A stretch of DNA of 64,000 nucleotides, taken from assembly GCA_030425385.1 (NCBI GenBank), contig JAUIAH010000021.1:62001-126000 (forward strand), read 5' to 3'. The stretch's first letter is position 1, and each line of letters begins with the position of its first letter. The notes under the pieces are model-generated. The model ran no database searches. It saw only the letters and a program-made list of their open reading frames with translations, and was not told the origin of the DNA. The stretch comes from Verrucomicrobiia bacterium (GTDB lineage: Bacteria > Verrucomicrobiota > Verrucomicrobiia > Verrucomicrobiales > DEV007). The translations under genes were made by a program, and so were the position numbers. This document shows, one piece after another, positions 1,207 to 62,610 of this stretch.

Positions 1207-1271
1207 GGAGGTTCATACCTTGCCACGGCTTCATCAGCAATGGAAAGAAGTTGAGAGAACGCACTCCTAAA

Positions 1272-1310
1272 ACGTGATCTGCATTCACGGACGGCGAATG
1301 AACTAGTGAC
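1272..1310 (+). promoter_or_regulatory. Transfer-regulon motif, copy 1 (upstream of relaxase)
   Basis: This 39-bp element runs from AACGTGAT to GGCGAATGAACTAGTGA. The same blocks with identical spacing occur at 8165-8203, 47311-47349 and 56184-56222. Here it ends 21 bases before the relaxase ATG. The left block also forms a short inverted repeat (CGTGA ... TCACG). The two blocks are spaced like the -35 and -10 elements of an ECF-sigma promoter, but an operator role is equally possible. Confidence 0.7.
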
Positions 1311-1331: not shown

Positions 1332-4300
1332 ATGATTACCGCAAGCTCCATCACCGGTGGCGACAACTACCTGTCAAAGCACCTTCGAGCGAACGACTAC
1401 TACGAGGAAGGCAAGGAAGTCTCCGGCGAGTGGATCGGAAACGGCGCGCAGAAACTTGGGCTTGAGGGGGCCGTCGAATCCGAACATTTCGAGATGCTTC
1501 GGAACAATCAGCACCCGTTCACCGGAGAACGTCTCACCGAGCGCAAGAACACCGTCGCCAAAGTGACGAATCCGAAAACGGGTCGGGTCGAGAATCGCAA
1601 GCCGATCACGCTACATGACATCAACATCAGTGCCCCAAAGGCCGCGAGCATTGTCGCCATTGTCGGCGGAGATGATCGCGTGGTCGAGGCTTGGAAGGAT
1701 TCGGTTAGGCTTGCCGTGAAAGAAATGGAACACTTCGCAGCCGTTAGGCTGCGCGCGGGCGAATTCAGAAACTCTGAGAAACTCCGCATCACCGGCAATG
1801 TAGTCGGTGCTCTCTTCTTCCACGACAGCAGCCGAGAGCTTGATCCGCAGTTGCACGCCCATGCTGTGATGGCCAACGCGAGCTTTGATAGGGAACGCGA
1901 CAAGTGGATGGCGCTTCAGCGTCGCGCCATGATGGAGTCGAGCGTCTACGTGCGCGAATTTCTTTATCATAGCTTCGCTCGGAAACTGACGCAGTTAGGT
2001 TACAAGGTCGAACCCAGCAAAGACTCGCACGGATTCGAGATTGCCGGGATCTCCGAGGAGGCAAAGCGCACGTTCAGCGAGCGCGCGAATCAGAGAATCA
2101 AGTTCGAGGCCCATTACAAGAAGGTGTTCGGCCATCAACCGACCAAACGACGGGTTGGGCAATTCATCGCGGATCTCAAGGGGGCGTCAGAGCTGCGCTT
2201 CCGCGCCGAATACAAGGCAGCCTTCAAGAAAGAGCCAGAAGCGAAGCTCGTGGCTGACTTCGTCAAGAACGCCCGCAGTCCGAAACTACCCGAGATCTCC
2301 ACAGGGGAAGTGCGAGCACGGCAACGCGAGCGGCTAGACGATCAAGGCCTCGGCCAAGTCGAGCAGACAGTCGCCGCAGCACGAGTGCGCGCAGCGGAAG
2401 GCATCAGCCTCTCACCGAGCAGCAGTCTAAAGGAGGCTGCCGTCAAGGGTTTGGATCACTGCCTCGAACGCACCAGCGTTCCCCGCCTGGGCGATGCCTT
2501 GGCGTCGGCATTGCGATTCGGATCGAAGCGGATCGGCGATCTCGATCCGAGTGGACTTTACAAGGAGATGCGTTCAAGAACCGGTGCGATTAGCGACGGC
2601 TATTTGATGACCACTGAGCTAGTCCTCCAGGAAGAAACAGCCATCCTCCACTTTGCGAAACACTCACGTAACCAGTTCGAGCCGTTGGGCGACTGTCAGG
2701 GAGCACAACTTGATCTCTTGGACGAAGGTCAACGTAAAGCCATCGTAGGTTTGTCAGAGAGCCGGAATGGCATCGCCATCCTGATCGGCGATGCCGGAAC
2801 TGGCAAAACGCACACGTTAGCGAGACTCGACGAAGCGCATCGGCACAAGACGCGCAACGGACTGATCGCGCTGGCTCCAACGACACGGGCGACAGCGGAG
2901 CTTGCCGCAAACGGGTACCCGGAAGCGGCCACGGTAGCCGCATTCCTGAACAGCGAACGCCTTCAAGAACAAGCTGCCGGGCGAGCCGTGCTCATCGATG
3001 AAGCAGGATTCCTTTCCACGAAACAACTCGCGCAACTCGTCACCATCGCGAACGAGCGCGGGGTGCGACTGGTGCTTGTTGGCGATACCAAGCAACACGA
3101 ATCCGTTGAACGCGGTAGCGCCCTTCGCAGCATCATCGATTCCGGCTTCATCAAGCCCGAACGCCTGCGAGACGTCAGGCGACAACGAGCGGAGTTGCAT
3201 CGCAAGCTGGCAAAGATGCTAGCCGACGGGAAGTCCCTCAAGGCGTTGGAGAAAGCCGAAGCGCTAGGCATGGTACACGAGATCCCCGATGCCCGCGAAC
3301 TGTTCGTCGATGCGGCGAAGCACTACGCCGACGAAGTCGAAGCTGGAAAAGAGACGCTCGTCGTCATCCCGACCTGGGATGACATCGACTGGTTCAATGA
3401 GGAGGCGCGGGCCGAAATGAAGGCACGGAATCTGATCCACGGCGATGAAATCGAGATCCGTGGATCCGCCTCGATGTCCTGGACGGAAGTCGAACGGTGT
3501 CACTGGCAGGATTACCAACCTGGCATGGTGCTCAACTTCCATCGCGAAGTGGGCGGCATGAAAGTGGGCGAATCCGCGACCGTTAAAGAGGTGCATAACA
3601 ACGGTGTCAGTGTCGTGCGACCCGATGGAACTACCGTCAAGATTGGACGCAGACAACGCAACGGCTTCGACGTGGCGGAAGAGCGACCGCTTCAAGTTGC
3701 CGCAGGCGACGAGCTTCTCTTCCGGGCCAATTGCCCCGAAATCAAGGTCTCGAACGGCGAACGTCTCAAGGTGGTCTCGGTCGATGCCTCGACGAATCAG
3801 GTGACACTGTCAGGAAACAGAGTGTTGCCTGACAACTTCACGCAAGTGAGCCACGGCCACGCCGTGACCTCGCACAAATCCCAAGGCGCGAGCGTCGAGC
3901 AATCGATCCTCGTGGTCGGGCCAAGTTCGTTGCCAGCTTCGAACCTGAGACAGTTTTACGTAAGCAACACGCGTTTCAAGGATGGTCACCGTCTCTATGC
4001 GCACAATCTGAGCGCATTGAAGGGAGCCGTCGCTAGCCGTTCTGAACGGATGCTGGCGCGCGAGTTTGTCGCCCACTTGAGCAAAGAACTAGGCGCGCTG
4101 TTGCAGGAACAGGAACGAGCCAAGCTGAACACGAAATCGAACGGCAGCGACATCGTCAGAGCGAAGCAACGCGAGAAACGCATCAAACAATTGATGGGAG
4201 AAGTTGCCGGGCGCGAACGAAGAGCAAAGAACCGTGTCAGCTTCAACGCTCTTCAGGAGAAGCTATGCATCAGCCAGATGCCGGAGCGCATTCTCAAATG

Positions 4301-4454
4301 GCTCAAAGGGCGACGCAAGGAGCAGACTCGCAAGCGAGCCAAGAGCAAGTTCCGAGCCTACGCCGTGGCTCGAAGCATTCGGCAAGGGCGTAAAGCTTCG
4401 CAGTGGTTCGAGCGCGCCCGTGCCGGCGTGCGGAGCATGGGCCGACGACGCTAA
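1332..4454 (+). CDS. MobF-type conjugative relaxase-helicase (TrwC/TraI-like)
   Basis: This 1040-residue protein should nick oriT, stay covalently bound to the transferred strand and unwind DNA. The N-terminus (MITASSITGGDNYL) is typical of MobF. Catalytic Tyr23-Tyr24 lie in NDYYEEG, and the metal-binding histidines are His164, His175 and His177 in FFHDSSRELDPQLHAHAV. A UvrD/RecD-like helicase follows: Walker A GDAGTGKT near residue 486, Walker B VLIDEAG near 553 and a late GHAVTSHKSQGAS motif near 840. The C-terminus is basic. It is much shorter than F TraI (1756) but similar to TrwC (966). A conserved 39-bp motif lies just upstream. The type IV secretion genes are 43 kb away, an unusual separation. 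Confidence 0.93.
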   Translation: MITASSITGGDNYLSKHLRANDYYEEGKEVSGEWIGNGAQKLGLEGAVESEHFEMLRNNQHPFTGERLTERKNTVAKVTNPKTGRVENRKPITLHDINISAPKAASIVAIVGGDDRVVEAWKDSVRLAVKEMEHFAAVRLRAGEFRNSEKLRITGNVVGALFFHDSSRELDPQLHAHAVMANASFDRERDKWMALQRRAMMESSVYVREFLYHSFARKLTQLGYKVEPSKDSHGFEIAGISEEAKRTFSERANQRIKFEAHYKKVFGHQPTKRRVGQFIADLKGASELRFRAEYKAAFKKEPEAKLVADFVKNARSPKLPEISTGEVRARQRERLDDQGLGQVEQTVAAARVRAAEGISLSPSSSLKEAAVKGLDHCLERTSVPRLGDALASALRFGSKRIGDLDPSGLYKEMRSRTGAISDGYLMTTELVLQEETAILHFAKHSRNQFEPLGDCQGAQLDLLDEGQRKAIVGLSESRNGIAILIGDAGTGKTHTLARLDEAHRHKTRNGLIALAPTTRATAELAANGYPEAATVAAFLNSERLQEQAAGRAVLIDEAGFLSTKQLAQLVTIANERGVRLVLVGDTKQHESVERGSALRSIIDSGFIKPERLRDVRRQRAELHRKLAKMLADGKSLKALEKAEALGMVHEIPDARELFVDAAKHYADEVEAGKETLVVIPTWDDIDWFNEEARAEMKARNLIHGDEIEIRGSASMSWTEVERCHWQDYQPGMVLNFHREVGGMKVGESATVKEVHNNGVSVVRPDGTTVKIGRRQRNGFDVAEERPLQVAAGDELLFRANCPEIKVSNGERLKVVSVDASTNQVTLSGNRVLPDNFTQVSHGHAVTSHKSQGASVEQSILVVGPSSLPASNLRQFYVSNTRFKDGHRLYAHNLSALKGAVASRSERMLAREFVAHLSKELGALLQEQERAKLNTKSNGSDIVRAKQREKRIKQLMGEVAGRERRAKNRVSFNALQEKLCISQMPERILKWLKGRRKEQTRKRAKSKFRAYAVARSIRQGRKASQWFERARAGVRSMGRRR

Positions 4455-8164: not shown

Positions 8165-8203
8165 AACGTGATGCGCCTGGGAAAATGGCGAATTAGTTGG
8201 TGT
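8165..8203 (+). promoter_or_regulatory. Transfer-regulon motif, copy 2 (upstream of kinase)
   Basis: Same 39-bp architecture as copy 1: AACGTGAT, then GGCGAATTAGTTGGTGT after the same spacing. It ends one base before the kinase ATG. If it is a promoter with its -10 element in the right block, the kinase mRNA would have almost no leader. Confidence 0.65.
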
Positions 8204-8204
8204 C

Positions 8205-9938
8205 ATGTCTCAACTCTTCGACTCAAACGAGAGCGTTCCCGACGAGAACGGCACGGACGTCGAGTTCGGTTTGTGCAACGGATGCGGTGAACCCCTCACG
8301 GCCCCCGGCGAGGGCGGTCACTGCGAGAGCTGCCTGCTCGTTCCGTTCGCGGGAGTGTGGGATCCGTGCGAGCCGCCAAGCATGGAAGAGGCCGCGAGCC
8401 GACTTCCCCGATTCAAGTTCGAGAAAGAACTTGGACGCGGAGGACTGGGAACGGTCTTTGGAGCAATTGATAGGAAACTTGATCGTATCGTGGCGATCAA
8501 AGTGATGTTCAAGAATCCCGATAACCCTGAGTTTTCGGAGCGATTCGAGCGCGAAGCATCAGCGATGGCAAAGCTGAGCCATCCTAACATCGTGTCGATC
8601 CATGAGTCCGGCAAAGTCGATGATCTGCACTACCTCGTAATGGAGCGGATGGAAGGTGGCACCTTGGCAGAGGAGATTAGCTCAAAGAGGAAGCTGCCGG
8701 TTCGGCGTGCCATGAATGTGCTTGGTCAAGTCTGCGATGCGTTGGACTACGTTCATTCAATGGGGGGCATGCATCGGGATGTGAAGCCGGGTAACATTCT
8801 GTTGGATAGAAAGGGCAACGCCAAGCTGAGCGACTTTGGACTGGTGAAAGGCATGCTCTATGAGGAGTTCACAGAAGAGGCCCTGACACGAACCGACATG
8901 GCGGTGGGTACGCCGCAGTACATGGCTCCCGAACAATTGGAATGGCCAGCCCAAGCTGATCTTCGTGCTGACATTTACTCAACTGGAGCAGTGCTCTACG
9001 AGATGATGACAGGAGAAGTGCCGCACGGGCGCTACAAGCCCGCATCAAAGTTCCCCGGAGTGCCGCGCCTTCTGAATCCCATCGTTGATCGCGCGTTGAA
9101 CAAGGTGCCGGAGAAGAGATTCGAACGAGCCTCTGCCTTGAAACAAGAGATGATACACCGAATGAAGGCGAAGAAACGTTGGTCGATTCGGCTCGGAGCG
9201 GCAGTGGGATTGATCCTCTTTGCCGTCACGGGTGCAAAAGCCCTGGAGGCCCTGAGAGGCGAAACCAACCAGAAAGCCGCTGCTCCACAACACATCCCGC
9301 AAGAAGAAATCGAGGGCCTTCCGCTAGGGGAACTCGCGGACGAAGTTGATTTCGACGACTGGTACAAGCTGGCTGATTACGATTTTGAAAGAAAGGCAGC
9401 GGATAGCATGGGAAACCAAGAGGATCTCAAGCTTGAGGAAGGAGTCATAGTCGAAGATGGAAAACTCCGATTGAAATTGTTGGGAGACTTCGCGGTGGCA
9501 AACTTGAAGCGAACATGGACTTCACCTCCCAAAGGGTTCGCAGTGAACTTCAAGTTCCTGCCCGAGGAATACTTGGCCACGGGCGTACAGGACACCGTGA
9601 TCTTCGAATACTCATTGCACTGGAAGAACGGCGTGTTCCTCCAGGGCTCAAAGTGGGGCGATCCTCGACCAACGTTCCTGACAGACCTACGTCAGCCGAT
9701 GGCACCTCCTGGAGTCATTGAGCCTCATCTGGCAGTGGGCCAGTGGCACGATGTGTGGATTGTCCTCACAGATAGCCATCGCCTATGGATCGATGGAAAA
9801 GCAGTCTACCGTACCCGCGCATCTGCGGGCTTGGAGAACTGGGAACGATGGAAAGGAAATCAGGGAGTGACACTGCAAGTCCAGGGATTTCGCGGCTTGG
9901 TCGACCACATTCGCATCTGGGAACAAAAGCGGGGGTAG
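8205..9938 (+). CDS. Membrane-anchored Ser/Thr protein kinase with zinc ribbon
   Basis: This 577-residue protein has four parts. A zinc ribbon (Cys24, Cys27, Cys40, Cys43) is followed by a PknB-like kinase domain (about 72-320) with the G-loop LGRGGLGTVFG, Lys99 in VAIK, HRDVKPGN (Asp192), DFG (Asp210) and GTPQYMAPE. A membrane helix (328-346) precedes an exported C-terminal domain (about 375-577) that looks beta-rich and LamG-like. The kinase residues look intact. In PVC bacteria such kinases often pair with ECF sigma factors; a candidate is at 50848. A decayed copy of the kinase core lies at 46845-47216. The gene carries the same upstream motif as the transfer genes, so it may control conjugation. 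Confidence 0.88.
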   Translation: MSQLFDSNESVPDENGTDVEFGLCNGCGEPLTAPGEGGHCESCLLVPFAGVWDPCEPPSMEEAASRLPRFKFEKELGRGGLGTVFGAIDRKLDRIVAIKVMFKNPDNPEFSERFEREASAMAKLSHPNIVSIHESGKVDDLHYLVMERMEGGTLAEEISSKRKLPVRRAMNVLGQVCDALDYVHSMGGMHRDVKPGNILLDRKGNAKLSDFGLVKGMLYEEFTEEALTRTDMAVGTPQYMAPEQLEWPAQADLRADIYSTGAVLYEMMTGEVPHGRYKPASKFPGVPRLLNPIVDRALNKVPEKRFERASALKQEMIHRMKAKKRWSIRLGAAVGLILFAVTGAKALEALRGETNQKAAAPQHIPQEEIEGLPLGELADEVDFDDWYKLADYDFERKAADSMGNQEDLKLEEGVIVEDGKLRLKLLGDFAVANLKRTWTSPPKGFAVNFKFLPEEYLATGVQDTVIFEYSLHWKNGVFLQGSKWGDPRPTFLTDLRQPMAPPGVIEPHLAVGQWHDVWIVLTDSHRLWIDGKAVYRTRASAGLENWERWKGNQGVTLQVQGFRGLVDHIRIWEQKRG

Positions 9939-46844: not shown

Positions 46845-47216
46845 GCCCTGCTTCCTCGATTCAAGCTCGAGAAAGAACTAGGGCAAGGAAGACTAGGTGC
46901 CGTCTATGGTGCGGTTGATAGAAAACTGGATCGTATCGTGGCGATGAAGGTGATGTCTGATGATCCCCACATTCCCGGGTTCTCGGAACGCTTCGAACGG
47001 GAAGCTTCGACGATGGCAAAACGGAACCATCCTAACATCGTTTCGATTTATGAATCTGGCTGAGTAGATGATTATCTCGTGATGGAGCGGATGGAAGGCG
47101 GCTGAGTAGATTCGCTCAAAGGAAAAACTGTCGATTCAGAGCGCGATGAGTGTGCTTGGGCAAGTCTGCGATGCGTTGGATTACGTTCACTCGCTTGGCA
47201 TGCATCGGGATGTGAC
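46845..47216 (+). pseudogene. Decayed Ser/Thr kinase fragment
   Basis: The frame reads FKLEKELGQGRLGAVYGAVD and KLDRIVAMKVM, then FSERFEREASTMAKRNHPNI, colinear with residues 70-130 of the kinase at 8205. After VSIYESG two TGA stops appear (at 47061 and about 47103), each in a copy of GGCTGAGTAGAT, with codons lost around them. Later DNA still matches the segment up to MHRDV, then similarity ends at about 47216. The zinc ribbon, catalytic core end and sensor part are gone. Nothing recognisable fills 46613-46844 except GC-rich hairpins. Confidence 0.85.
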
Positions 47217-47310: not shown

Positions 47311-47349
47311 ACCGTGATGTGCGTTCTCAGACGGCGAATTAACTGGTGA
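47311..47349 (+). promoter_or_regulatory. Transfer-regulon motif, copy 3 (upstream of VirB2)
   Basis: ACCGTGATGTGCG, then GGCGAATTAACTGGTGA with the common spacing. It ends 22 bases before the VirB2-like ATG. An overlapping inverted repeat CATCACG/CGTGATG (47300-47319) includes the left block, as expected for an operator. Confidence 0.7.
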
Positions 47350-47371: not shown

Positions 47372-47650
47372 ATGAATAACATTATCAACAATATCATGCC
47401 GGTTCTCGCTGCTGCGGGAGGTCTTCAACAGAATTTGGGGCAAGTCGCGGGAGTCCTCAACGCTATCGCCATTCTGCTCTTCTTCGGAGGGCTGCTCATG
47501 TCCGCTATCATGTTCATGATCGGGCGCACCGAATACCTGAAATACGGTCTGGTCGGTGCGGGGCTTGGTGGTCTCGCGTGGGTTATTGTCACGACCTTCT
47601 TCCAAGCGGGCAATGGGGTCGATCCCGGCATCCAGTTGCAGAACTTCTAG
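47372..47650 (+). CDS. virB2: VirB2/TrbC-like pilin
   Basis: This 92-residue protein has two hydrophobic helices (about 28-50 and 58-78) and a short polar loop (MIGRTEYLKYG), as in VirB2/TrbC pilins, though the N-terminal leader is short. It is the first gene of the type IV secretion operon, with a VirB3-like and a VirB4-like gene next, so position strengthens the call. It would be the major pilus subunit. Confidence 0.7.
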   Translation: MNNIINNIMPVLAAAGGLQQNLGQVAGVLNAIAILLFFGGLLMSAIMFMIGRTEYLKYGLVGAGLGGLAWVIVTTFFQAGNGVDPGIQLQNF

Positions 47651-47703: not shown

Positions 47704-48129
47704 ATGAGCCCACACGGCGAAGGCCGACGCTACCACGAGGCGAACGCGGGAAGGGATTCCAAGCCCGTCATCTTCATCTTCGAGGGGAACAACATCCTCT
47801 GGATGGTGCTCGGATGCGGGCTTGCCCTTCTCGTGTTTCGGCTCGGCCACGACCAACTGAACTGGAGCATCGGCGAGTCACTCGCCGCTGGCCTCGTTCC
47901 CCTATCAATCATCTCGCTCTACGTCATCCTCCTCAAGTCGGGCAAGCCGCAGAGCTTTGACCGTGAGTTCTTCGAATGGATCGCCATCCGTTCACGACAG
48001 GCCCTCGATCACTTCGGACTGATGCGTGATCGTGCCTACTTCGCTCCGCCGAGATCCAAGCCTACCCGTCGGCCCAACCATCCATCCAGCAAATCTTCAC
48101 AATCCAACAATCATGGCCAAACCCATTGA
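47704..48129 (+). CDS. virB3: VirB3/TrbD-like inner-membrane protein
   Basis: This 141-residue protein has two close membrane helices (about 30-48 and 60-80) and a polar, basic C-terminal tail. VirB3 proteins have this layout and always lie before VirB4, as here. The sequence itself is weakly conserved. It overlaps the VirB4 start by 17 bases. Confidence 0.6.
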   Translation: MSPHGEGRRYHEANAGRDSKPVIFIFEGNNILWMVLGCGLALLVFRLGHDQLNWSIGESLAAGLVPLSIISLYVILLKSGKPQSFDREFFEWIAIRSRQALDHFGLMRDRAYFAPPRSKPTRRPNHPSSKSSQSNNHGQTH

Positions 48130-50788
48130 CGGCTACCTTGTCGATGACCTCATCGTCTATCGCGGACTGCAGAAAGGAGGCTACGTCGGTCGTGGCTTCC
48201 GAATCCACCCACCCGATGGCGAGAACGCCGATGTGGGCTGGCTTAACCGGCTCGAAGACGAAATGCGCGTTCTGCTAGCCTCGCTCAAGGACACAGCGCG
48301 GATGCAGTTCCATTGGTCGGTTGATTCCGATTACCAACGCGAATTGCTCTCCTACTACGCAAAGACCAAGGAACTGGCGACCAACGAATGGAGCAAACTT
48401 CAGCGCAACGAACGCTTCACGCGCTACTGGCGACTCATGGAGCAACGCCAACTGCGCCGCGAACGTCTAAACATCTACATCACAAGCAAAGTCGATGCAG
48501 GCGCGCTGCCCAAGGATGGGGGCAAGCGCAAGATCTATGACTACGTGCTCGGTACCATTGGCAGGGAATTGGAGCAATACGGCGACCTCATGGAGCAAAT
48601 CTTTGGAAGTGTCGGAGGCTCTGTTCGTCCGTTAGGCGAGTTGGATCACTTCGAAGAATTCTATCGCTACTTCAACGCTTCCGCCCCCGATTGCCCTGAG
48701 ATCGACTACGAACAACTCTACGATCCTGACAGAAGTCTGATCGAGAACTGCTTCAATGGCGAAGCTGCCCCCCTATCAAAACCCGATCAGGGCTACTACC
48801 TCGACGGCTACTACCAAGGCATCCTCGTCGTGAAGAGTCTGCCCAAGACCACCTTCTCCGGCATGATCGCTCAGCTGACCGAACTCGACATGCTCGACTA
48901 CAGCATCACGGTCAACATCCGTCCGCTCGACGTCATGAAGGAGATCGAAAAGGAAGAAGGAGCCTACGAGAAACTCCAGAACACCATCCAACACTCGCCA
49001 AAGCTTCGGATGCTCGCCGCCATGCAGAAGAAGGGGCAGAAGATCTCGCGTCTGATGTCGAACGAAGTGCTCCCCTACAAGGCACAGTTCATTCTGCGCT
49101 GCTGGGATGCCGACAAGGCCGGACTTCGCGCCAAGATGGCGGCCCTGCGAAGCGCCATTTCAAAACTGGGCGGCGCGAAATACTATGATCCCGCTCTGCC
49201 GACCAGTAATCGCAACTACTTCTACGCCGCCATACCGGGATGGTCTTGGGACAAGTACCAGGACTTCAGCCACTACATTGAGGATGCGAACCTGGCCAAC
49301 CTGCTTCCAGTGTCTGCCACGCCCACCGCCGATCTAGCTGATGCCGAAGCGATCTACGACGGAGCCAACCGCAACCTCATCGGTGTGAAGACATTCGCCA
49401 ACAATGCGCCGCAACATGGCGTGATGTTTGGCATGAGCGGCGCGGGCAAGTCGGTGAATATGATCGATCTCCTGACACAGACCGATCCCTACTACGACTA
49501 CACCGTGATCGTCGAGGAAGGCCTTTCTTACGGCATCTATTCACAAACCGTCGAGGAGAACGCCAAACCGATCATCATTCAGCCCAACGGAACGCTGACG
49601 TTCAATTACCTCGATACCAGCGGCTTGCCGCTCACATCGCTACACATTTCGAACGCTACCGCACTTTGCCAACTCATGGCAGGCGTTTGTCAGGACGAAG
49701 ACAAGAACCGGCTGCGTGGGGCGCAATTGTCGGGCGCTATCCGCCAACTCTACCGTGACTACTACGACGATTGGACACGACGGAACACCGATTCCCATCG
49801 TGAACTTGTTCGAACCGTCGCGGCATTGCAGAAATGGCTGGTCGAGAAATTGCCTCCCGGCGCAACCATGCTCGACGCCTACATCGACTTTCGCGATTCT
49901 GGCCACGGGGAGAAAGAAGAATGGTTAGCGAGCACGACTGACGAAGAGATCGAAGTCACCGAACGCGATCAACTTGCCTCCGAGGAGACTTTCCGCCTCG
50001 CCTTCGCCGGAATGCGCCCGGATCAAATGCCAACACACAGCCAGTTGCAGGAAATGCTAGGGATGGACCCCCAAGGCGTCAATGCACAGGAAGCGAGGCA
50101 GCTCGCGCAACTGCTAGAGCCATGGTGCCATCATGGCAGCTACGGCGCAATCCTTGACGGCACCAACAACGTCAATCTGCGGGGGCGAATCGCTCACTTC
50201 GAACTCGGCTACATCCCCGAATCCGCGCAAGACCTGCGAGCCGTCGCCGCCTTTCTCATCACGAATCACGTTCGAAACGAGGTCATGACGCGTCGCCGCG
50301 ATGTCAGAAAACGTGTGATTCTCGAAGAGCTGAGCGCCTTCCTAACCATTCCCGATGGCGACCGCATCACCCGCGAATTCTACGAGCGGATGCGCAAGTT
50401 CAACTGCTGGGTGTTCTCAGTGATTCAACAGTTCGGTCGTTTCTACGATAGTCCCGTCCGCTCCAGCGTGATGGGCAACTCGCGAATGCTCATGCTCATG
50501 AAACAGCGAGACCGTCAGGATCTCGACCGCATCTCGGAAGCGTTTCCATTGCCAGAAGTGACACAGGGAGCCATCAGTTCGTTCCCCGAGCCCAAGGCAT
50601 TCTCCAGCTTCGTCTACTATCGTGAAGACGACGCCAAGCCGATCATCGCAAACGCCAGGAACCGAGCGTCAAAAGAGATGCTCTACGCAACCGCCAGCGA
50701 CGGTGCGACTTTTGAACGCAGGGCCAAGGAAATGCTAGGCAACGCACCAGTCGTCGAACGCATCACCCAAGCAGCTCAATCCGCCTAA
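48113..50788 (+). CDS. virB4: VirB4/TraC-type conjugation ATPase
   Basis: From ATG 48113 (MAKPIDGYLVDDLIVYRG) it has 891 residues. The longer frame from 48026 would overlap the VirB3-like gene. Walker A is GMSGAGKSVN near residue 440. The Walker B-like site is RVILEELSAFLT near 732, with Glu-Glu where Asp-Glu is usual. A later FSVIQQFGRF region also fits VirB4/TraC. This ATPase drives pilus assembly and DNA transfer at the inner membrane. Confidence 0.9.
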   Translation: MAKPIDGYLVDDLIVYRGLQKGGYVGRGFRIHPPDGENADVGWLNRLEDEMRVLLASLKDTARMQFHWSVDSDYQRELLSYYAKTKELATNEWSKLQRNERFTRYWRLMEQRQLRRERLNIYITSKVDAGALPKDGGKRKIYDYVLGTIGRELEQYGDLMEQIFGSVGGSVRPLGELDHFEEFYRYFNASAPDCPEIDYEQLYDPDRSLIENCFNGEAAPLSKPDQGYYLDGYYQGILVVKSLPKTTFSGMIAQLTELDMLDYSITVNIRPLDVMKEIEKEEGAYEKLQNTIQHSPKLRMLAAMQKKGQKISRLMSNEVLPYKAQFILRCWDADKAGLRAKMAALRSAISKLGGAKYYDPALPTSNRNYFYAAIPGWSWDKYQDFSHYIEDANLANLLPVSATPTADLADAEAIYDGANRNLIGVKTFANNAPQHGVMFGMSGAGKSVNMIDLLTQTDPYYDYTVIVEEGLSYGIYSQTVEENAKPIIIQPNGTLTFNYLDTSGLPLTSLHISNATALCQLMAGVCQDEDKNRLRGAQLSGAIRQLYRDYYDDWTRRNTDSHRELVRTVAALQKWLVEKLPPGATMLDAYIDFRDSGHGEKEEWLASTTDEEIEVTERDQLASEETFRLAFAGMRPDQMPTHSQLQEMLGMDPQGVNAQEARQLAQLLEPWCHHGSYGAILDGTNNVNLRGRIAHFELGYIPESAQDLRAVAAFLITNHVRNEVMTRRRDVRKRVILEELSAFLTIPDGDRITREFYERMRKFNCWVFSVIQQFGRFYDSPVRSSVMGNSRMLMLMKQRDRQDLDRISEAFPLPEVTQGAISSFPEPKAFSSFVYYREDDAKPIIANARNRASKEMLYATASDGATFERRAKEMLGNAPVVERITQAAQSA

Positions 50789-50847: not shown

Positions 50848-51588
50848 GTGAGAACAGGATTCGAAGCCGACATGTTTCCCTCCACCCACTGGAGCGCCAT
50901 TAGCCAAGCGAGAGGTAGTGATAGTGCCACCGCTAAAGCTGCCCTTGATCGACTCTGTGTTACCTACTGGAAGCCGATTTGCTCCTTCATTCGCCACCTT
51001 GGCCAAACCGAGGAAGACGCCGAAGATCTGACCCAGGATTTCTTTCGCCAGCAAATGATCCGGCGAAACCTGTTTCTGGAAGCACGGAAAGGGAAAGGCT
51101 CTCTCAGAAGCTACATCTGCGTTGCGGTGAAGCGACTAGTGTATGACGCCAACAAGAAGCGAGGAAGACTCAAGCGCGGCGGCGATCAATCCTTTGTGTC
51201 GTTCGAAGCGGCTGAAGAATCCGACGACGGCCTGCTTGATACTTCATCCAGTCCTGACCTCTACTTCGACCGGCAATGGGCGATTGCAACGATTGGCCGA
51301 GTGGTGACGGAATTCGAGGCCGATCTCGTTGCACGGGGCAAACAAGAGCTGTTCGATGAGCTGCGCCCCTACCTCATGGGCCCGGAAACAGACACGCCTC
51401 AACAGGAAGTCGCCCAACGGCTCGGAATGGAACCCAACGCCCTTTCCAACCTGCTCCAGCGATGGCGCTCCAAACTCGGCAAAGCCTTCCGGGCCGAAGT
51501 CGCTGCCACGATTCCCAGCGAAAACCCGCGCGAAATCGAAGCAGAGATCATCTATTTGAAGGGGCTGTTCGATTCAAACACAAGGTGA
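50848..51588 (+). CDS. ECF-type sigma factor (kinase-partnered PVC type)
   Basis: This 246-residue sigma has FPSTHWSAISQARGSDS near the start, which is typical of the large PVC ECF groups. Region 2 is EEDAEDLTQDFFRQQMIR with SLRSYICVAVKRLVYD. A helix-turn-helix follows near 185-215 (QQEVAQRLGMEPNALSNLLQ). In PVC genomes this type usually neighbours a Ser/Thr kinase with a Cys ribbon. Here the kinase is at 8205 and a dead copy is at 46845. It lies inside the transfer operon and may recognise the 39-bp motif. The next 216 bases hold no gene. Confidence 0.8.
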   Translation: MRTGFEADMFPSTHWSAISQARGSDSATAKAALDRLCVTYWKPICSFIRHLGQTEEDAEDLTQDFFRQQMIRRNLFLEARKGKGSLRSYICVAVKRLVYDANKKRGRLKRGGDQSFVSFEAAEESDDGLLDTSSSPDLYFDRQWAIATIGRVVTEFEADLVARGKQELFDELRPYLMGPETDTPQQEVAQRLGMEPNALSNLLQRWRSKLGKAFRAEVAATIPSENPREIEAEIIYLKGLFDSNTR

Positions 51589-56183: not shown

Positions 56184-56222
56184 AACGTGATGTGGCTCTC
56201 CAGACGGCGAATTAACTGGTGA
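56184..56222 (+). promoter_or_regulatory. Transfer-regulon motif, copy 4 (second transfer block)
   Basis: AACGTGATGTGG, then GGCGAATTAACTGGTGA, at the same spacing as the other three. The last base is the A of the next gene's ATG, so a promoter reading here would make a leaderless message. Confidence 0.7.
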
Positions 56223-56662
56223 TGAAACCTATCGCAGCAACCGTCGGCTGGCTGGCAACCGTTCTGGCCATCACTTTTCTCAACTCCTGTAGCAGTGTTC
56301 CGCGTGCGGCGACCAACGCCGCCTTGGCTGGCACGGGGGCATTCATTGGCCATGAGGTATCGGACGGCGAACCGGAGGGAGCATTGCTAGGAGCGGCGGC
56401 GGGGGTTGTTGCGGGAGAGCTGCTGAATCACAAGCAGGAGACTGGCAAAGCCAGGGCCTACGGCACTGGCTATGACAAGGGGAGGAGCGATGAAGTAAAG
56501 CGGCTCTACTGGGTGCAGCGAAATCTACACCGAGGCGATGAGTTCGGTGGGGCGGGATCCCTAACGCCTTCCTACTACGAGATCCCGGTGCCCGAGCATG
56601 TGAACTCGGACGGCACCATCATCGAACCTCACACGGAAATCATCGAAGTGCTGGAGCCATGA
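56222..56662 (+). CDS. Glycine-zipper lipoprotein of the transfer region
   Basis: From ATG 56222 (MKPIAATVGWLATVLAI) it is a 146-residue lipoprotein with lipobox LNSC (Cys about 21). A glycine-zipper stretch follows (AALAGTGAFIGHEVSD, EGALLGAAAGVVAGELL), as in outer-membrane lipoproteins of conjugation or VirB7-like components. It begins the second block of transfer genes and overlaps the next gene by 4 bases. Confidence 0.65.
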   Translation: MKPIAATVGWLATVLAITFLNSCSSVPRAATNAALAGTGAFIGHEVSDGEPEGALLGAAAGVVAGELLNHKQETGKARAYGTGYDKGRSDEVKRLYWVQRNLHRGDEFGGAGSLTPSYYEIPVPEHVNSDGTIIEPHTEIIEVLEP

Positions 56663-57021
56663 GATCGCGATACACACACGAAGGACAGCTCGATCATCAC
56701 GCGGACAACGAGCATGAACTGTTTCATCGTGCCGACCAGGCCTTGGAACGGCAACGCCGGATGGATCACTTGGCACGAGTTGATGAGCATTCGGCGGCGA
56801 TCGGATTCGCAGCGCCTCTCGGGAAGGACTTGGGATTTCCCTTAGCAGCAAGCCTGCCTGCTGCCAGTACCCCGGTTCCAAAGATGCCTCATGAGGAGAT
56901 CGCCGAACGCATTGCTCTAAAACCAGCGACTCTAACCACACCCCAAGCGGGCCTTGCTTGGCCGCCCCGAACGAACCCGGCGGCGACCGGATACAACCAC
57001 GGATTTCGAACCAAGAGATAA
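56659..57021 (+). CDS. Hypothetical protein of the transfer region
   Basis: This 120-residue protein is polar, with many His and Arg near the N-terminus (HHADNEHELFHRADQALERQ) and a Pro/Ala-rich second half. There is no signal peptide. It is not recognised. It overlaps the lipoprotein gene and precedes another unknown gene by 3 bases. Confidence 0.55.
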   Translation: MRSRYTHEGQLDHHADNEHELFHRADQALERQRRMDHLARVDEHSAAIGFAAPLGKDLGFPLAASLPAASTPVPKMPHEEIAERIALKPATLTTPQAGLAWPPRTNPAATGYNHGFRTKR

Positions 57022-57024
57022 AGA

Positions 57025-57432
57025 ATGAATCGAATCGACACTGCGCAGGCACCTTACCAGCTTCGACGCGCCCTTGCCGAATTCACCGGCAAAGAGGTTT
57101 CGACCCTAACGCTAGGGCGAGTGAAGCCCATCGAAGGGGTTGAGGGTGGCTTGCAACGCCAGATGACGGCGAGACTCGGTGGCGAGCGCAAGAGCTTCAC
57201 CGCCATGGAAGTTGGCGGCAAAGTCACGATCATCGATGGAAGCCTCGGACTCGAAACGAACAAGGCTCACGAGTTCCTCAAGCGTGTCGATGCCGCAAGA
57301 GAGAAGCGGCTGACGTCGGCGCAAGTATCCAGCCCCAACAGTTCTCATCAGGCGACAACTGGCTGGCCAGTACGCCAAGCCTCAACCGCCAATCACGTAA
57401 CAGCTACTCGGGCACAAGTTCGACGGCGTTGA
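57025..57432 (+). CDS. Hypothetical protein of the transfer region
   Basis: This 135-residue, basic protein has a start rich in beta-forming residues (EVSTLTLGRVKPIEGVEGG, then MTARLGGERKSFTAMEVGGK) and a disordered Ser/Thr/Arg tail. It could bind DNA, but I do not recognise a family. It lies between the lipoprotein gene and the VirB5-like gene. Confidence 0.55.
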   Translation: MNRIDTAQAPYQLRRALAEFTGKEVSTLTLGRVKPIEGVEGGLQRQMTARLGGERKSFTAMEVGGKVTIIDGSLGLETNKAHEFLKRVDAAREKRLTSAQVSSPNSSHQATTGWPVRQASTANHVTATRAQVRRR

Positions 57433-57458
57433 CCACAACCAAACCATATCAAAACAAC

Positions 57459-58301
57459 ATGAGATCCACGATCCTAACCATTCTATTCGGCGCCCTGGCG
57501 CTATCTCCAATTGCCTCGCAAGCAACAGGCATTCCCGTCGTTGACGCTGCTCACATTGCAACCAACCGAGTGTCGCACGCCATCGACTACGTGCAGCAAG
57601 TCCTGCACGAGGCGAACCAGCAAACGCAGATTACCAATCAGCTAGAGCAGGTCACGCAGCTCTACGAACAGATTGATCAGCTCTATGAGCAAATCGCTCA
57701 GATGGATGACTATCTGGAACGTTTCGGTGATCCCAAGTCGATTGTGAATCTCGCCGGGTTCAACGAATTGCTTGGAGAACTCGAGCAGGCAACCGATGGA
57801 CTAGACATTGAGGGGATTCTGCCAGAAATCACCGGCGAAGACTTTTTCGGATTCGATGGCAGGGGCATCTTTCAGCCAATCCAGCCAACGATCACCATTG
57901 GCGACGAAGACTTTGATAGAGACCCAGAGCGCTATAAGCCCAACGATGCAGCCAAGGAAACCGTCGCGCAGTATCGCGCCAAGAAGGCGGAGGTCATTGA
58001 GCGGAGGGACGCGCTGCGCGCCAAGATCGCGGAGACCACAGAGCAGATGCAATCCGCCGAGACCGACAGTGAAGTCAAGAAGCTGACCGGCATCCTGCTA
58101 GGCCAGCAAACCGAATTGCAGGCCATTGATAGTGAACTGGACATCGCACGCGGCGATGCCGAGGCCCGCGCTCTGGAGAACGAGAATCAGCGACAAGCCG
58201 AAGCCAAAGCGCGAGCCGAAGAAAGCGCCAAACGCTTTGAGGCCGCAGGACGTGCTGATGTTGAGACCTACAAGCTGGATCAATCGCCCTACGGATGGTG
58301 A
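57459..58301 (+). CDS. VirB5/TrbJ-like pilus-associated protein
   Basis: From ATG 57459 (MRSTILTILFGALALSP) it has 280 residues. After a signal peptide ending near SQATG, GIPVVDAAHIATNRVSHAID, a Gln-rich coiled coil (QITNQLEQVTQLYEQIDQLY) and a long charged helix follow, as in TrbJ/VirB5. The family sits at the pilus tip. A TTG at 57429 is an alternative start. The place before VirB6/TrbL supports the call. Confidence 0.7.
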   Translation: MRSTILTILFGALALSPIASQATGIPVVDAAHIATNRVSHAIDYVQQVLHEANQQTQITNQLEQVTQLYEQIDQLYEQIAQMDDYLERFGDPKSIVNLAGFNELLGELEQATDGLDIEGILPEITGEDFFGFDGRGIFQPIQPTITIGDEDFDRDPERYKPNDAAKETVAQYRAKKAEVIERRDALRAKIAETTEQMQSAETDSEVKKLTGILLGQQTELQAIDSELDIARGDAEARALENENQRQAEAKARAEESAKRFEAAGRADVETYKLDQSPYGW

Positions 58302-58342
58302 TCCCAATTTCCTAACCATTCACAGCACACAACCGCACGACC

Positions 58343-58696
58343 ATGTTCCAACGCAATCGTATCGAACTCACTGGCAATATTGCCAAGCAACCACGCTCAG
58401 CCAGGGCTGGCAACTCCATCGTCGTTCGCGCTCGCCTGATCCACAACGAAACGGTGGAGAAGGCGAGTGGCGAAACGATCGAACGCCTGACCGCAGTCGA
58501 GATTGAGATCTGGGGCAAACGCGGAGTGGCCTTCGAGCAACACGTCACGAGCCAAACGCCGGTCTACATCGAGGGAAAGCTGCAACTCGCGGAATGGGAG
58601 AAGAACGGGGAGCGGTTCTTCCGAAACTTCATTCGAGTGACGAACTGGCAATTCCTGATGCCGAAACAGGCAGCCACTAGCACGGCGTCTGCCTAA
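58343..58696 (+). CDS. ssb: Single-stranded DNA-binding protein (transfer-region copy)
   Basis: This 117-residue SSB matches the copy at 6586 along the OB fold (IELTGNIAKQPRSARAG, RARLIHNET, then WGKRGVAFEQHV and NWQFL). The tail is short (MPKQAATSTASA) and lacks the usual acidic tip. Having one SSB in the leading region and one in the transfer operon suggests roles in recipient and donor, respectively. Confidence 0.88.
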   Translation: MFQRNRIELTGNIAKQPRSARAGNSIVVRARLIHNETVEKASGETIERLTAVEIEIWGKRGVAFEQHVTSQTPVYIEGKLQLAEWEKNGERFFRNFIRVTNWQFLMPKQAATSTASA

Positions 58697-58708
58697 CCCA
58701 ACGCAATC

Positions 58709-59848
58709 ATGGACGACTTCGACTCTCTCTTTCCGACCTTCAAGACCAACGTCGCCGATCTGCACGACGGGCTGCTCGTGTTTGCCTATTTGACGATGGT
58801 GCTTGGACTGCTGCTCGCGGCCTATCGCGGAATGTTCGGAAACATCACCGAAGTTGTTAGGGCACTGGTCGCCGTCGCCATTCTCAGTGTCACGTTGGGT
58901 TACATTGATGATTGGGTCTTCGATTCGGGAAACCTCGTGAACGACTTCATCATCGATGGTCTCAACACCGATCCCCGAGAAACGCACACACGATTCGGTG
59001 AACTGCTAGCCAATCCAACCGACGCTGACGATGACCGTTCGTGGTATGATCGGATCTTCGACGCAGAAACGGCGATGGCTGAATGGTTGGCCAAAGGCAT
59101 CATCTGGCTGGCCGCCAAAGCCGCGTGGGTGATCGTCTGGTGGGCCTACTTCATTCACAAGGCGATTGTCTACTTCGGCGTCTCCCTCGCACCGATCTTC
59201 CTGCCGATGCTCATGCTGAATCCAACGCGCGGAATTGCCGTGCGCTATGTCATGGGCTTGTTCTCGCTCATCATGTGGCCGCTCGGCTGGGCAGTTGCCA
59301 ACCTCATGACCCAGTCACTGATGGATGCGGCGGCGGATCGCACGCTCTACGAATTCGGCGGCATCCTCGGTCAGGCATCCTACGGGCCGCAGATGCTGAT
59401 CTTCATACTGATCGCCTCCATCTGGCTACTCGCCAGCACCATTGGTGCCCCAATCATTATGAGCCGGGTTCTCACGAGTGGTGCACAGATTGGAGCAGCC
59501 CTGTTAGGAGGGTTCGCCGGAAGCATGGTCGGGACGGCAAGCGGAGGTGTCGGAGGGGCCATGCTAGGCGGAAGCATGGCGGGCGGAGCCGGTGCGGTCG
59601 GAGGCGCGATCCTAGGTGGCGGTGGAGGCTTTGCTAGCGGAGCCGCTGGCGGCCCAAGCTCCGGCATGGCCACCGGTGCAGGCATGGCGGCATTCTCTAT
59701 GGCGGGAGGGATGAGCAGCTCATCCAGCGGTTCCGATTCAAAAGGCGGCGGTGGTGGATCGGGAGGCTCAAGCGGGGGTGGAAGCTCGGCGTCTTCATCC
59801 AACTACAACTCTGAAGCCGAAGCCATTGCCAAGGCGGCGGGAGCCTAA
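58709..59848 (+). CDS. VirB6/TrbL-like polytopic membrane protein
   Basis: This 379-residue protein has about six membrane segments (including LLLAAYRGMFGNITEVVRAL and FIHKAIVYFGVSLAPIFLPM regions). It ends with a long Gly/Ala/Ser-rich low-complexity tail (about 255-375), with SSSSGSDSKGGGGGSG. TrbL/VirB6 proteins have this hydrophobic core and often a disordered tail. It is the inner-membrane channel part of the secretion system. Confidence 0.75.
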   Translation: MDDFDSLFPTFKTNVADLHDGLLVFAYLTMVLGLLLAAYRGMFGNITEVVRALVAVAILSVTLGYIDDWVFDSGNLVNDFIIDGLNTDPRETHTRFGELLANPTDADDDRSWYDRIFDAETAMAEWLAKGIIWLAAKAAWVIVWWAYFIHKAIVYFGVSLAPIFLPMLMLNPTRGIAVRYVMGLFSLIMWPLGWAVANLMTQSLMDAAADRTLYEFGGILGQASYGPQMLIFILIASIWLLASTIGAPIIMSRVLTSGAQIGAALLGGFAGSMVGTASGGVGGAMLGGSMAGGAGAVGGAILGGGGGFASGAAGGPSSGMATGAGMAAFSMAGGMSSSSSGSDSKGGGGGSGGSSGGGSSASSSNYNSEAEAIAKAAGA

Positions 59849-59869
59849 CCATTCAACTCACATCAATCT

Positions 59870-60478
59870 ATGAAACGTTCACAAGCTATTGATCTCTTCA
59901 TCCACAAGGACAAAGTCGCGCTCTTCTGGTTCGGTGTCGCTTTGCTGGTCACCATCGGATTCTGGTTCGAGCGTCAGCGACTTGTGAAGAACCTGATGGC
60001 GAAGCCGCAGTTCTTCGTCATGGACGCCAACCATACTTACTACCTGCCGTCCGCGATGGACTTTGGCAGCGCGAAGGAAGTTCATGCGGCGCAGACACGG
60101 CTAGCGATGGAGGCGATCTTCAATCGCACTGCCAATGGGCCAGACAGCCCGGAACGATTGAAGCGCATCTTGGGGCGCGATGCCTATCACAAGGCCATGG
60201 ACGCCATCGATCACGAAGCGGACGAGTTCGCAGACAAGCAGATTCACCAGAAGGTCGAACTCGGGCCGATTCAGGTACTGCAAGTGCGTGACGATTCCGT
60301 TCTGACCGGTGTCGAAGGTCAGCTCGTTCGCAGCGGCATCTTTCGCGGTAAGGCCTTCACCGAAGCGCTGCTCGTGAAGGCTCAATTCAAATTCATCCTC
60401 AACCCCGACATGACGGCGAATGGCCGGTTTCCGACCGTGGCCATCGCCTTTGATTCCACTACAGAACCTACACTATGA
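59870..60478 (+). CDS. VirB8/TrbF/TraE-like protein
   Basis: This 202-residue protein has a short cytoplasmic start, one membrane helix (about 17-34) and a periplasmic domain with a helix (EVHAAQTRLAMEAIFNRTAN) and strands typical of VirB8-like folds. It links inner-membrane components. It overlaps the VirB9-like gene by 4 bases, so order and coupling support the call. Confidence 0.65.
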   Translation: MKRSQAIDLFIHKDKVALFWFGVALLVTIGFWFERQRLVKNLMAKPQFFVMDANHTYYLPSAMDFGSAKEVHAAQTRLAMEAIFNRTANGPDSPERLKRILGRDAYHKAMDAIDHEADEFADKQIHQKVELGPIQVLQVRDDSVLTGVEGQLVRSGIFRGKAFTEALLVKAQFKFILNPDMTANGRFPTVAIAFDSTTEPTL

Positions 60479-61452
60479 AACTGAAACCCATACTCACATG
60501 CATCCTCGCGACAGGGCTGATCAGCCTAAACGCCAGCGCCGAGCCCATCGAGCGTCTCGCGCTCGACCCCGGCAAGCCCCTCGTCATCCCAATCGGCTCC
60601 AAGACCGCCACCACCGTCCAGTTCCCGCGACAGATCCAAGGTATCTTCGGCTTCGGGCTGACGAAAGGCGAAGCACCCGGCACCTATCACTACGCCCATC
60701 CCGATGGGGCGCGCGTTCTCGCTTTTCGTAATTTGATACCGGACAAGGAGACGTACGTCTCCGTCTTGTTGGGTAAAGATGATCTCTACGTGCTGCATCT
60801 GAAGCCATCGACAGAGCCTCCGATCGCGGTGCATTTGCTAGATCAAAACGATCTGGCGCGACAGCGTCAGGCGTGGCGAGTCGAAGCCGATGCACTGGCA
60901 GAGCGCCAGCTTGATCCTGACACGGCGCGACTGTTCAACCTGCTCAAGCTCGGCAAGAACGAGCGCGCCTTCCGAATCGCGGTGCCGCATCTCTATCAGG
61001 ATGTCGAAAGCCGCAAAGTAGACTATCGGCACGACGATGATTCCGTGGCGACTGTCGTGAAGAAACTCCATCGGTTTCCGAAGGAGGATGCCGTCTTCAT
61101 CAACGGTCACGTTGAGAACCACACCGACGAAGCGTTGTATTTCGATCCGGGATCGTTGCAAGTGAAAGTGGGATCTCGCACTTATCCCGTGGCTCTGGTC
61201 GATTCCGCTTCCGAGATTCCGGCAATGGGGAAGATCCCGCTCCATGTCGTCGTGCGCGGTGGCATCGAAGGCGAGCGAGCGCACTTGAGCATCAAGAATG
61301 AGTTCCGTTTGATCATGCCCGACTATGCGCCTTGCACAGACGATCCATCACTGACGGATCAGTTGGGTCAGGTGCTCGTGCCACCGGGCGATTACGATGT
61401 CCCTGATGATGGCCTTTTCCCTGAGACCGGACAGAAGGGAGGCTCCAAATGA
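60475..61452 (+). CDS. VirB9/TrbG/TraK-like secretin-like protein
   Basis: This 325-residue protein has a signal peptide (cleaved near SLNASAEP). The early segment KPLVIPIGSKTATTVQFPRQ and later beta-rich stretches fit VirB9/TraK. The C-terminal part (RLIMPDYAPCTDDPSL-like) contains one Cys, possibly for a disulphide with the lipoprotein. It lies between VirB8- and VirB10-like genes with 4-base overlaps. Confidence 0.75.
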   Translation: MKLKPILTCILATGLISLNASAEPIERLALDPGKPLVIPIGSKTATTVQFPRQIQGIFGFGLTKGEAPGTYHYAHPDGARVLAFRNLIPDKETYVSVLLGKDDLYVLHLKPSTEPPIAVHLLDQNDLARQRQAWRVEADALAERQLDPDTARLFNLLKLGKNERAFRIAVPHLYQDVESRKVDYRHDDDSVATVVKKLHRFPKEDAVFINGHVENHTDEALYFDPGSLQVKVGSRTYPVALVDSASEIPAMGKIPLHVVVRGGIEGERAHLSIKNEFRLIMPDYAPCTDDPSLTDQLGQVLVPPGDYDVPDDGLFPETGQKGGSK

Positions 61453-62609
61453 TCGGTCGCGTCATCGGATTCTTCAAATCACCGGTCGGAGCCGGGATTC
61501 TGTTCCTGGTAGGCATGTTCGTCTTCTTCTACTTTGTGCGCAGTTATCGTGAGCACAAAGCGATGGAAGCCATGGCCGCTGAAGGCGTCAACGTGCTAGG
61601 CCAGATGTCACCCGAGGATGTTGGCCCAAACCCTGGCACACCGCTTCAATCAGAGTGGGTGAAGGAAGGCGAACTGAAGAAATTCAATCCTCCACCTGAG
61701 AAAGATGTACCGCTAACCAGGCCAGAAGTCGCCCGTCAAGAGCCCAACAAGCCACCCGTGTTGCCGGAACTCGTGCATCTCTATCGTGAAGCCAAAGATG
61801 AACCGGCAGCGCCCGATCCCATCAAACCTCCGCGCACCTTTGCCCCAATGGGTACGCTGATTCCCTGCCAGCTCGTGATTACCGTCGATAGCAGTTCGCT
61901 CGAAACGCCGGTCGTTGGATTCGTGAGCGATGATGTCTGGCACAACCAGAACCTGATTGTGCCGGCGGGAACCGAAGTGCATTGCTTCGCCAAGCGCGGA
62001 CGCGTTCGCAATAGGATCGAAGTCACTGGAACCTGGAACTTTGTTTGGCAGGATGGTCGTGAAGTGCGGATCAACGGTATCGCGCTTGACCGGGATTACG
62101 ATCCTGACAAGGACAGCTACGCTATCACCGATGGCTCGGCAGGCATTCGGGGGAAAGTCGAGAAGTCAGACGAGTTTCTGGAGTTCAAGATGTTTGCAGC
62201 AACTGCGATATCAGGAGCTAGCAGGAATGCCAAAGGCACGACTAAAACCGTGCTAGGAGAATACGAGAACAATTCACTCTCCAATGCGTTGCTTGATGGC
62301 GGAGAATCCGTCGCCGACCGCTACGCCAAACTGATGCTCGATCAGATCGAGGGCGATGGGCTGTTTGTCAGAATACCTGCCGGAACCGAGTTCTACATCT
62401 ACACGCTGCAGGTCTTCGAGCCCAAGCTTGCTAGCGTTGCCGGACTCAGGCAGGGGCAGCAACCGGTGAACTCGTGGCAGAATACCGAAATCAACGAACG
62501 CTCAACTGTATCCGAACCATCCCCCAAGGTTCGGAACGCTCTAGAGGATCGTGAACGACTTGAGCAATTGATCCGGGCACGAATGGAGTCCAACAAGAAA
62601 GCATCCTGA
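61449..62609 (+). CDS. VirB10/TrbI/TraB-like scaffold protein
   Basis: This 386-residue protein has one N-terminal membrane helix (about 14-31), a Pro-rich linker (PPPEKDVPLTRPEVARQEPN) and a C-terminal beta-barrel domain with IPCQLVITVDSSSLETPVVG, IVPAGTEVHCFAKRGRV and VRIPAGTEFYIYTLQVF. These are typical of VirB10/TrbI, which bridges both membranes. It is the best-conserved of the channel proteins here. Confidence 0.85.
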   Translation: MIGRVIGFFKSPVGAGILFLVGMFVFFYFVRSYREHKAMEAMAAEGVNVLGQMSPEDVGPNPGTPLQSEWVKEGELKKFNPPPEKDVPLTRPEVARQEPNKPPVLPELVHLYREAKDEPAAPDPIKPPRTFAPMGTLIPCQLVITVDSSSLETPVVGFVSDDVWHNQNLIVPAGTEVHCFAKRGRVRNRIEVTGTWNFVWQDGREVRINGIALDRDYDPDKDSYAITDGSAGIRGKVEKSDEFLEFKMFAATAISGASRNAKGTTKTVLGEYENNSLSNALLDGGESVADRYAKLMLDQIEGDGLFVRIPAGTEFYIYTLQVFEPKLASVAGLRQGQQPVNSWQNTEINERSTVSEPSPKVRNALEDRERLEQLIRARMESNKKAS

Positions 62610-62610
62610 C

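Follow-up and report, generated by a model that had tools for sequence, protein, structure and literature searches.

How conjugative elements of the Verrucomicrobia time their transfer appears, from the literature searched, to be unknown; no ECF sigma factor and no motif of the kind described here was found to control conjugation genes in Verrucomicrobia in the open-access literature, with most subscription journals lying outside that search. The question is raised by a short motif which recurs at distant points of the window, by which is meant the whole stretch of DNA analysed (64,000 nucleotides; C27:62001-126000 of the genome G000, hereafter the own genome, of 8.0 Mb in 74 contigs): what does this motif do, and what reads it? 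The initial annotation reported one motif at four distant loci with fixed spacing and claimed that it joined mobilisation, secretion and a kinase into one regulatory unit, naming no mechanism. The evidence favours a promoter, probably used by an ECF-type sigma factor encoded by the element itself, a gene which that annotation did not mention.

The gene set of a conjugative T4SS is present in this element, with a relaxase (TrwC), VirB4/TraC and VirB10-like genes (TrbI and TrbL matches; Table 1). No Pfam match was obtained for the VirB2, VirB3, VirB8 and VirB9 candidates; VirB2 and VirB3 are taken to be such from position, and VirB8 and VirB9, which have no family match, from gene order. The window also carries heavy-metal efflux cargo at 9998-46600, comprising two RND pumps with HlyD/OEP partners, a P-type ATPase and a Na/H exchanger; its place, with the intact kinase on one side and the decayed copy that precedes VirB2 on the other, looks like that of an insertion. 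A large methyltransferase resembling type IIG restriction-modification enzymes is found at 51805-55104, downstream of the sigma gene and ahead of the second transfer operon.

Table 1. Motif copies and principal genes of the element, in window coordinates unless a contig (C27) is given.
Feature	Position	Strand	Details
Fifth motif copy	C27:61047, ~950 bp before window start	minus	69 nt upstream of ParA-like gene
Weak sixth motif copy	C27:61542	minus	2 core mismatches; 9 nt upstream of next small gene
Motif copy 1	1271..1309	+	before relaxase; core GTGAT-N16-CGAATGA, 1 core mismatch; core end to ATG 1332, 30 nt
TrwC/TraI-type relaxase-helicase	1332..4454	+	TrwC 1.1e-59, AAA_30
Motif copy 2	8165..8203	+	before Ser/Thr kinase; exact core, 9 nt to ATG 8205
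Ser/Thr kinase, proposed sensor	8205..9938	+	Pkinase 4.7e-53; one TM, residues 326-344 (hydropathy)
Decayed partial kinase copy, directly upstream of VirB2	46851..47215	+	76.7% DNA identity to 8205 gene over 382 columns
Motif copy 3	47311..47349	+	before VirB2; exact core, 30 nt to ATG 47372
VirB2-like pilin candidate, heading VirB2-VirB3-VirB4-sigma run	47372..47650	+	position; conservation in sister elements
VirB4/TraC-type ATPase	48026..50788	+	P-loop_TraG; TraC-F-type 7.9e-27
ECF-type sigma factor, proposed motif reader	50848..51588	+	directly after VirB4; sigma-like domain scores, fold
Motif copy 4	56184..56222	+	before second transfer block; exact core, 7 nt to ATG 56222
Second transfer operon	56219..63258	+	small glycine-zipper lipoprotein-like gene, VirB5, SSB, VirB6, VirB8, VirB9, VirB10, neighbours

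The full motif was defined as (A/C)CGTGAT-N14-GGCGAATTAACTGGTGA and its core as GTGAT-N16-CGAATTA or the CGAA(T/C)TA variant. With up to three mismatches allowed, GGCGAATTAACTGGTGA matches four times in the window against 0.12 expected, and the spacing of the blocks is equal in all four copies. The second block carries two mismatches in the relaxase copy, three in the kinase copy and none in the VirB2 copy or in the copy at 56206, with the VirB2 copy reading CCGTGAT rather than ACGTGAT. The copies end 22, 1 and 22 nt ahead of the start codons at 1332, 8205 and 47372, respectively; copy 4 overlaps the start at 56219/56222. All four copies are genuine, and the claim of one motif at four distant loci with fixed spacing holds, the copies being alike rather than identical. 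A fifth copy had been overlooked, as had a weak sixth that is not significant when taken alone (matrix score 14.5, below the best shuffled score of 16.6).

The full motif, at three mismatches or fewer, has five matches in the whole 8.0-Mb genome, all in the window's element, and the control has none; many matches at unrelated genes genome-wide would have counted against a common regulatory unit, and this search did not return them. The core GTGAT-N16-CGAATTA is found exactly 18 times in the own genome (C27 4, C39 6, C48 3, C35 2, C53 2, C6 1), with the reversed motif, used as control, matching once even with one mismatch allowed. When 74 genomes of the family were scanned with the core GTGAT-N16-CGAA(T/C)TA, each against a control motif, a clear excess was detected in three, namely G000 (20), G063 (19) and G064 (4, in an assembly 70% complete), giving 43 sites against a single control match in the three together. 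The remaining 71 of the 74 genomes hold 19 core matches against 23 for the control, which is chance level, with the same-genus genomes G050-G052 showing no excess (one core match each; controls 1, 3 and 0). Element genes are preceded by 41 of the 43 sites, among them two on C35 and C53 where the relaxase runs past the contig end and four on C338, where the genes concerned are an HTH gene and one of unknown function, the latter also found on C100 next to the ParA genes; the exceptions, on C70 and C427 of G063, look like chance. The distribution of the motif tracks the elements rather than the host lineage. Separately, a near-core with one mismatch and a C27-type flank was seen on the minus strand at G000 C8:31328 (L095), before a 250-aa open frame near the contig end, and whether it belongs to an element is uncertain.

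Sister elements in the own genome and in another genus carry the core before equivalent genes: the relaxase, the operon of a small gene and ParA, the kinase, VirB2, the lipoprotein gene at the head of VirB5-10 and, in elements in which that operon is divided, VirB8. The sister elements on C39 and C48 (own genome), C300 and C42/C260 (G063) were located via VirB4 homology, independently of the motif, and many contigs outside C27, C39, C48, C300 and C42 were chosen for having a motif match, so that their gene counts are not independent. The order kinase-VirB2-VirB3-VirB4-sigma is complete in C48, C39 and C300, with C42 and C260 each holding part. On the contigs found through VirB4 (C27, C39, C48, C300 and C42) the exact core lies upstream of VirB2 in 5/5 cases, of the lipoprotein gene in 4/4 and of the kinase in 3/5; over all examined contigs the corresponding counts are 5/5, 7/7 and 4/6, with the relaxase at 3/3 (two exact, one with a single mismatch). 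The small gene heading the ParA genes (g1104) has the exact core in 6/7 cases and two mismatches in its C27 copy, and the ParA genes themselves have a site at one mismatch or fewer in three of six, the other three, which lie behind further operon genes, having none. Contigs picked by motif match show the same set of relaxase, g1104, kinase and lipoprotein gene. Kinase sites are degenerate or missing in 2/6 cases, the C300 kinase having no recognisable site; no motif was found before VirB2 on C249 of G050, where VirB4 is broken, and neither a sigma match nor a core within one mismatch was obtained on the more distantly related T4SS contigs C206, C128 and C566. On C6 the motif stands in addition before a winged-helix gene that has a large serine recombinase behind it, and on C100, C338 and one G064 contig it stands before HTH genes called excisionase-like by resemblance, the G064 gene itself being identified only by resemblance. 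On C338 of G063 (L125), duplicated back-to-back motif pairs occupy 1327-1411 and 4248-4332, between the HTH_17 gene and the gene of unknown function.

The position of VirB8 differs between these elements and the motif differs with it. Where VirB8 lies inside the operon (C27, C211) there is no site (three mismatches; 0/2), and where it is separated from VirB6, by ~12 kb on C39 and ~48 kb on C48, an exact site is found 50 nt upstream (2/2), a pattern which is the expectation for a promoter and not for chance or a structural element. The claim that one regulatory unit joins mobilisation, secretion and the kinase is supported, on sequence evidence, because the motif reappears in sister elements at the starts of the corresponding genes and because it is absent elsewhere in the genome and not above chance in 71 of the 74 family genomes. 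The reading of these operons as a regulon, inferred as it is from sequence, is well supported.

The anatomy of the motif bears on how such a regulon would work. The consensus of 28 non-redundant sites reads TGTGATGT, a weakly conserved stretch ending (A)RAN-RR and then CGAA(T/C)TACC, with A-rich sequence upstream; four of 44 sites were left out as chance (C27:92340 and C260:13290, one mismatch each; C427:23369 and C70:7143, both exact). Only the two boxes, separated by a 16-bp gap, show information peaks, and they point toward the gene in one orientation, with no palindrome or tandem repeat apparent. Promoters of the ECF type consist of two boxes about 16 bp apart, with transcription starting just downstream. 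The two boxes seen here resemble -35 and -10 elements: the -35-like box reads (T/C)GTGATGT, the -10-like box CGAA(T/C)TACC, and 16 bp separate GTGAT from the latter. Among the 31 head genes for which a site with 0-1 mismatch is present, 17 have their start codon within 12 nt of the core, as do 4/4 cases in G064, the core-to-start distance often being 6-12 nt within an overall range of 6-69 nt. If the boxes are read as -35 and -10, many of the messages would be leaderless or nearly so. The motif is likely to represent a dedicated promoter at the heads of the main transfer operons in a family of Verrucomicrobia conjugative elements, the transcription start being inferred.

The candidate reader of this promoter is the sigma gene that follows VirB4. 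ECF sigma factors (sigma-70 group 4) have sigma-2 and sigma-4 in a single chain without sigma-3. The VirB4-linked sigma is a protein of 246 aa with sigma-like regions that resembles TIGR02937 over residues 32-213 (E 1.1e-10; 41.4 bits against a cut-off of 42.9) and Sigma70_r2 (E 3.1e-4; 20.9 bits against 24), in both cases just short of the cut-off, with a DAEDLTQ region-2.2-like motif present. Its structural model is all-helical (pLDDT 71), and in a Foldseek search with this model the first 14 matches were sigma factors or transcription-complex chains, all of them weak (best E 0.069); a PDB sequence search with the sigma alignment likewise gave weak matches (best E 0.044) with sigma factors on top. 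In PLSDB there was no match to the sigma, and the matches to VirB4 were distant (<60% identity). Contigs C27, C39, C48, C300 and C260, all of which bear VirB4, encode the VirB4-linked sigma. The kinase precedes the run VirB2-VirB3-VirB4-sigma in C48, C39 and C300, and in C42 it precedes VirB2-VirB4; the linkage of both genes to the transfer genes is shown by sequence. The VirB4-linked sigma diverges much faster than VirB4 (44-51% identity between element types against 78-88%), and near-identical sigma pairs go with near-identical boxes, as in C27/C168 (88% over 138 residues) and C48/C39 (93%). Within the own genome, CGAATTA is preceded by G in 4/4 exact C27 sites and by A in 14/14 others, with the two kinase sites carrying CGAACTA on C39/C48 having G before the box; C39, C48, C35 and C53 are near copies, so these flanking-base counts are not independent. 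No own motif copy was found directly upstream of the sigma genes or of DUF932. In C27, C39 and C48 the VirB10 operon closes with a second sigma gene, which is intact in C39 and C48; that of the window's element (C27:126162-126728, just beyond the window end) has lost the C-terminal DNA-reading part, leaving the VirB4-linked sigma as the candidate. That the element's own VirB4-linked sigma reads the motif is the best single explanation and probably the correct one, with binding being inferred in the absence of binding data.

The kinase has zinc-ribbon-like cysteines at its N-terminus, then the kinase domain and a single predicted TM helix, and ends in a lectin-like outer domain, the model of which is weak (pLDDT 58) and matches lectin/GH16-type beta-sandwich folds at E 2e-6. 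The decayed copy, in which the kinase match falls in two pieces, occupies the place where sister elements keep an intact kinase, the intact kinase of the window being 38 kb away. In the circuit proposed here, the lectin-like outer domain of the membrane kinase would sense an outside signal, the nature of which is inferred, and the kinase, itself under the motif, would activate the sigma factor by phosphorylation, for which there are no data. The sigma would read the motif promoters and, its own gene being downstream of a motif copy, would generate positive feedback. The joint switch-on would cover the relaxase, the partition-like gene and the secretion apparatus, and in sister elements also the recombinase and the excisionase-like genes. 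This kinase-sigma-promoter explanation is considered likely overall, with start site, sigma binding and phosphorylation all inferred, while the part in which the transmembrane kinase acts as the sensor controlling the sigma is plausible and only modestly favoured on inference.

More distant relatives suggest that the gene partnership has a longer history than the motif. In five genomes from a different genus within the order (L160-L169), with a VirB4 ~48% identical, an ECF/kinase pair is found upstream of VirB2 in 5/5, divergent and adjacent in four and ~4 kb away in the fifth. The box before VirB2 in that genus differs (TGTCACA-N17-TAACC), and no multi-site motif was found there, with one exact box copy genome-wide in four of the five genomes and none in the fifth. 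Since these loci keep the ECF/kinase pair and have a different box, the partnership is probably older than the motif, which speaks for a functional link of the pair with the transfer apparatus. A design with many promoters, in contrast, is shown for the family of the window's element alone.

Among other explanations, the one that survives best keeps the promoter but has it read by a host sigma factor or by the second sigma gene of the element. It is favoured by the number of related sigma genes in the own genome (34, each a possible reader), by the second sigma gene that closes the VirB10 operon on C27, C39 and C48, and by the presence of the motif in G064 where sigma matches are weak (best 2.8e-22). 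Against it, G050-G052 hold 7-23 related sigma genes with no motif excess, the second sigma of the window's element is without its C-terminal DNA-reading part, and the VirB4-linked sigma accompanies VirB4 on all five contigs named above; this reading is held to be unlikely. It is also improbable that an activator or repressor encoded by the element binds the motif and acts with ordinary promoters, in the manner of the transfer master activators of other conjugative elements. Small DNA-binding proteins (HTH_17 and winged-helix genes) do lie under the motif in sister elements, but the lack of an apparent palindrome or tandem repeat, the fixed 16-bp gap and the single orientation all speak against such a site, and starts often 6-12 nt downstream are too near for a separate downstream promoter plus leader. 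An RNA leader, a translation signal or a DNA-processing site is very unlikely: the GGTGA end resembles a ribosome-binding site and lies near the start codon in several C27 copies, but it varies among elements with the two upstream boxes constant, start codons lie anywhere between 6 and 69 nt away, and the motif precedes many different operons rather than one processing site. A host housekeeping promoter is rejected on the core being at control level in 71 of the 74 family genomes, same-genus ones included, and a chance origin is rejected by the window count against expectation and by the genome-wide full-motif and core counts against their controls.

With a promoter read by the VirB4-linked sigma as the preferred reading, a self-encoded sigma and its own set of promoters would make a short circuit running from sensor kinase to sigma, promoters and transfer. 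A bolder reading, no more than possible at present, is that each element has a private kinase-sigma-promoter circuit, such that sister elements sharing a genome have diverged in their -10 boxes and sigmas and are switched on separately, the trigger being a surface glycan or contact with a neighbour sensed by the lectin-like domain of the kinase. If the proposed circuit is true, the motif would serve as a genome-searchable tag for such elements, and the elements would offer a natural series of diverged sigma-promoter pairs.

Parts of this arrangement have counterparts in known systems. SigN of the Bacillus subtilis plasmid pBS32 is likewise a sigma encoded by a plasmid, but is tied to DNA-damage-induced cell death, unlike the role with transfer genes proposed here. 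The use of one element-encoded regulator for conjugative transfer genes recalls SetCD of the SXT/R391 elements; SetCD is an activator and not a sigma factor. Groups ECF59, ECF61, ECF62 and ECF217, the last with planctomycete examples, resemble the VirB4-linked sigma in having a kinase neighbour and a retained DAED-like motif (PMC8999054), with no function or target promoter given for them in the sections of that paper bearing on them. The pairing of a Hanks-type kinase with an ECF sigma factor is known from PknS-EcfK of Xanthomonas citri, in which a transmembrane kinase and a sigma switch on a T6SS (PMC13147305), and from PknT-EcfP of Vibrio parahaemolyticus. EcfP and EcfK belong to ECF43, in which the DAED of region 2.2 is replaced by uncharged residues with a phosphorylated Thr (PMC8999054); membership of the VirB4-linked sigma in ECF43 is rejected on its intact DAED, and because DAED is kept the activation mode of EcfP does not apply as such. 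Unlike in both pairs, the promoters described here look near-leaderless and are repeated across the element, and unlike PknS-EcfK the apparatus concerned is a conjugative T4SS with a relaxase on mobile elements, such that, if the proposal is true, kinase-ECF control extends from the T6SS to DNA transfer.
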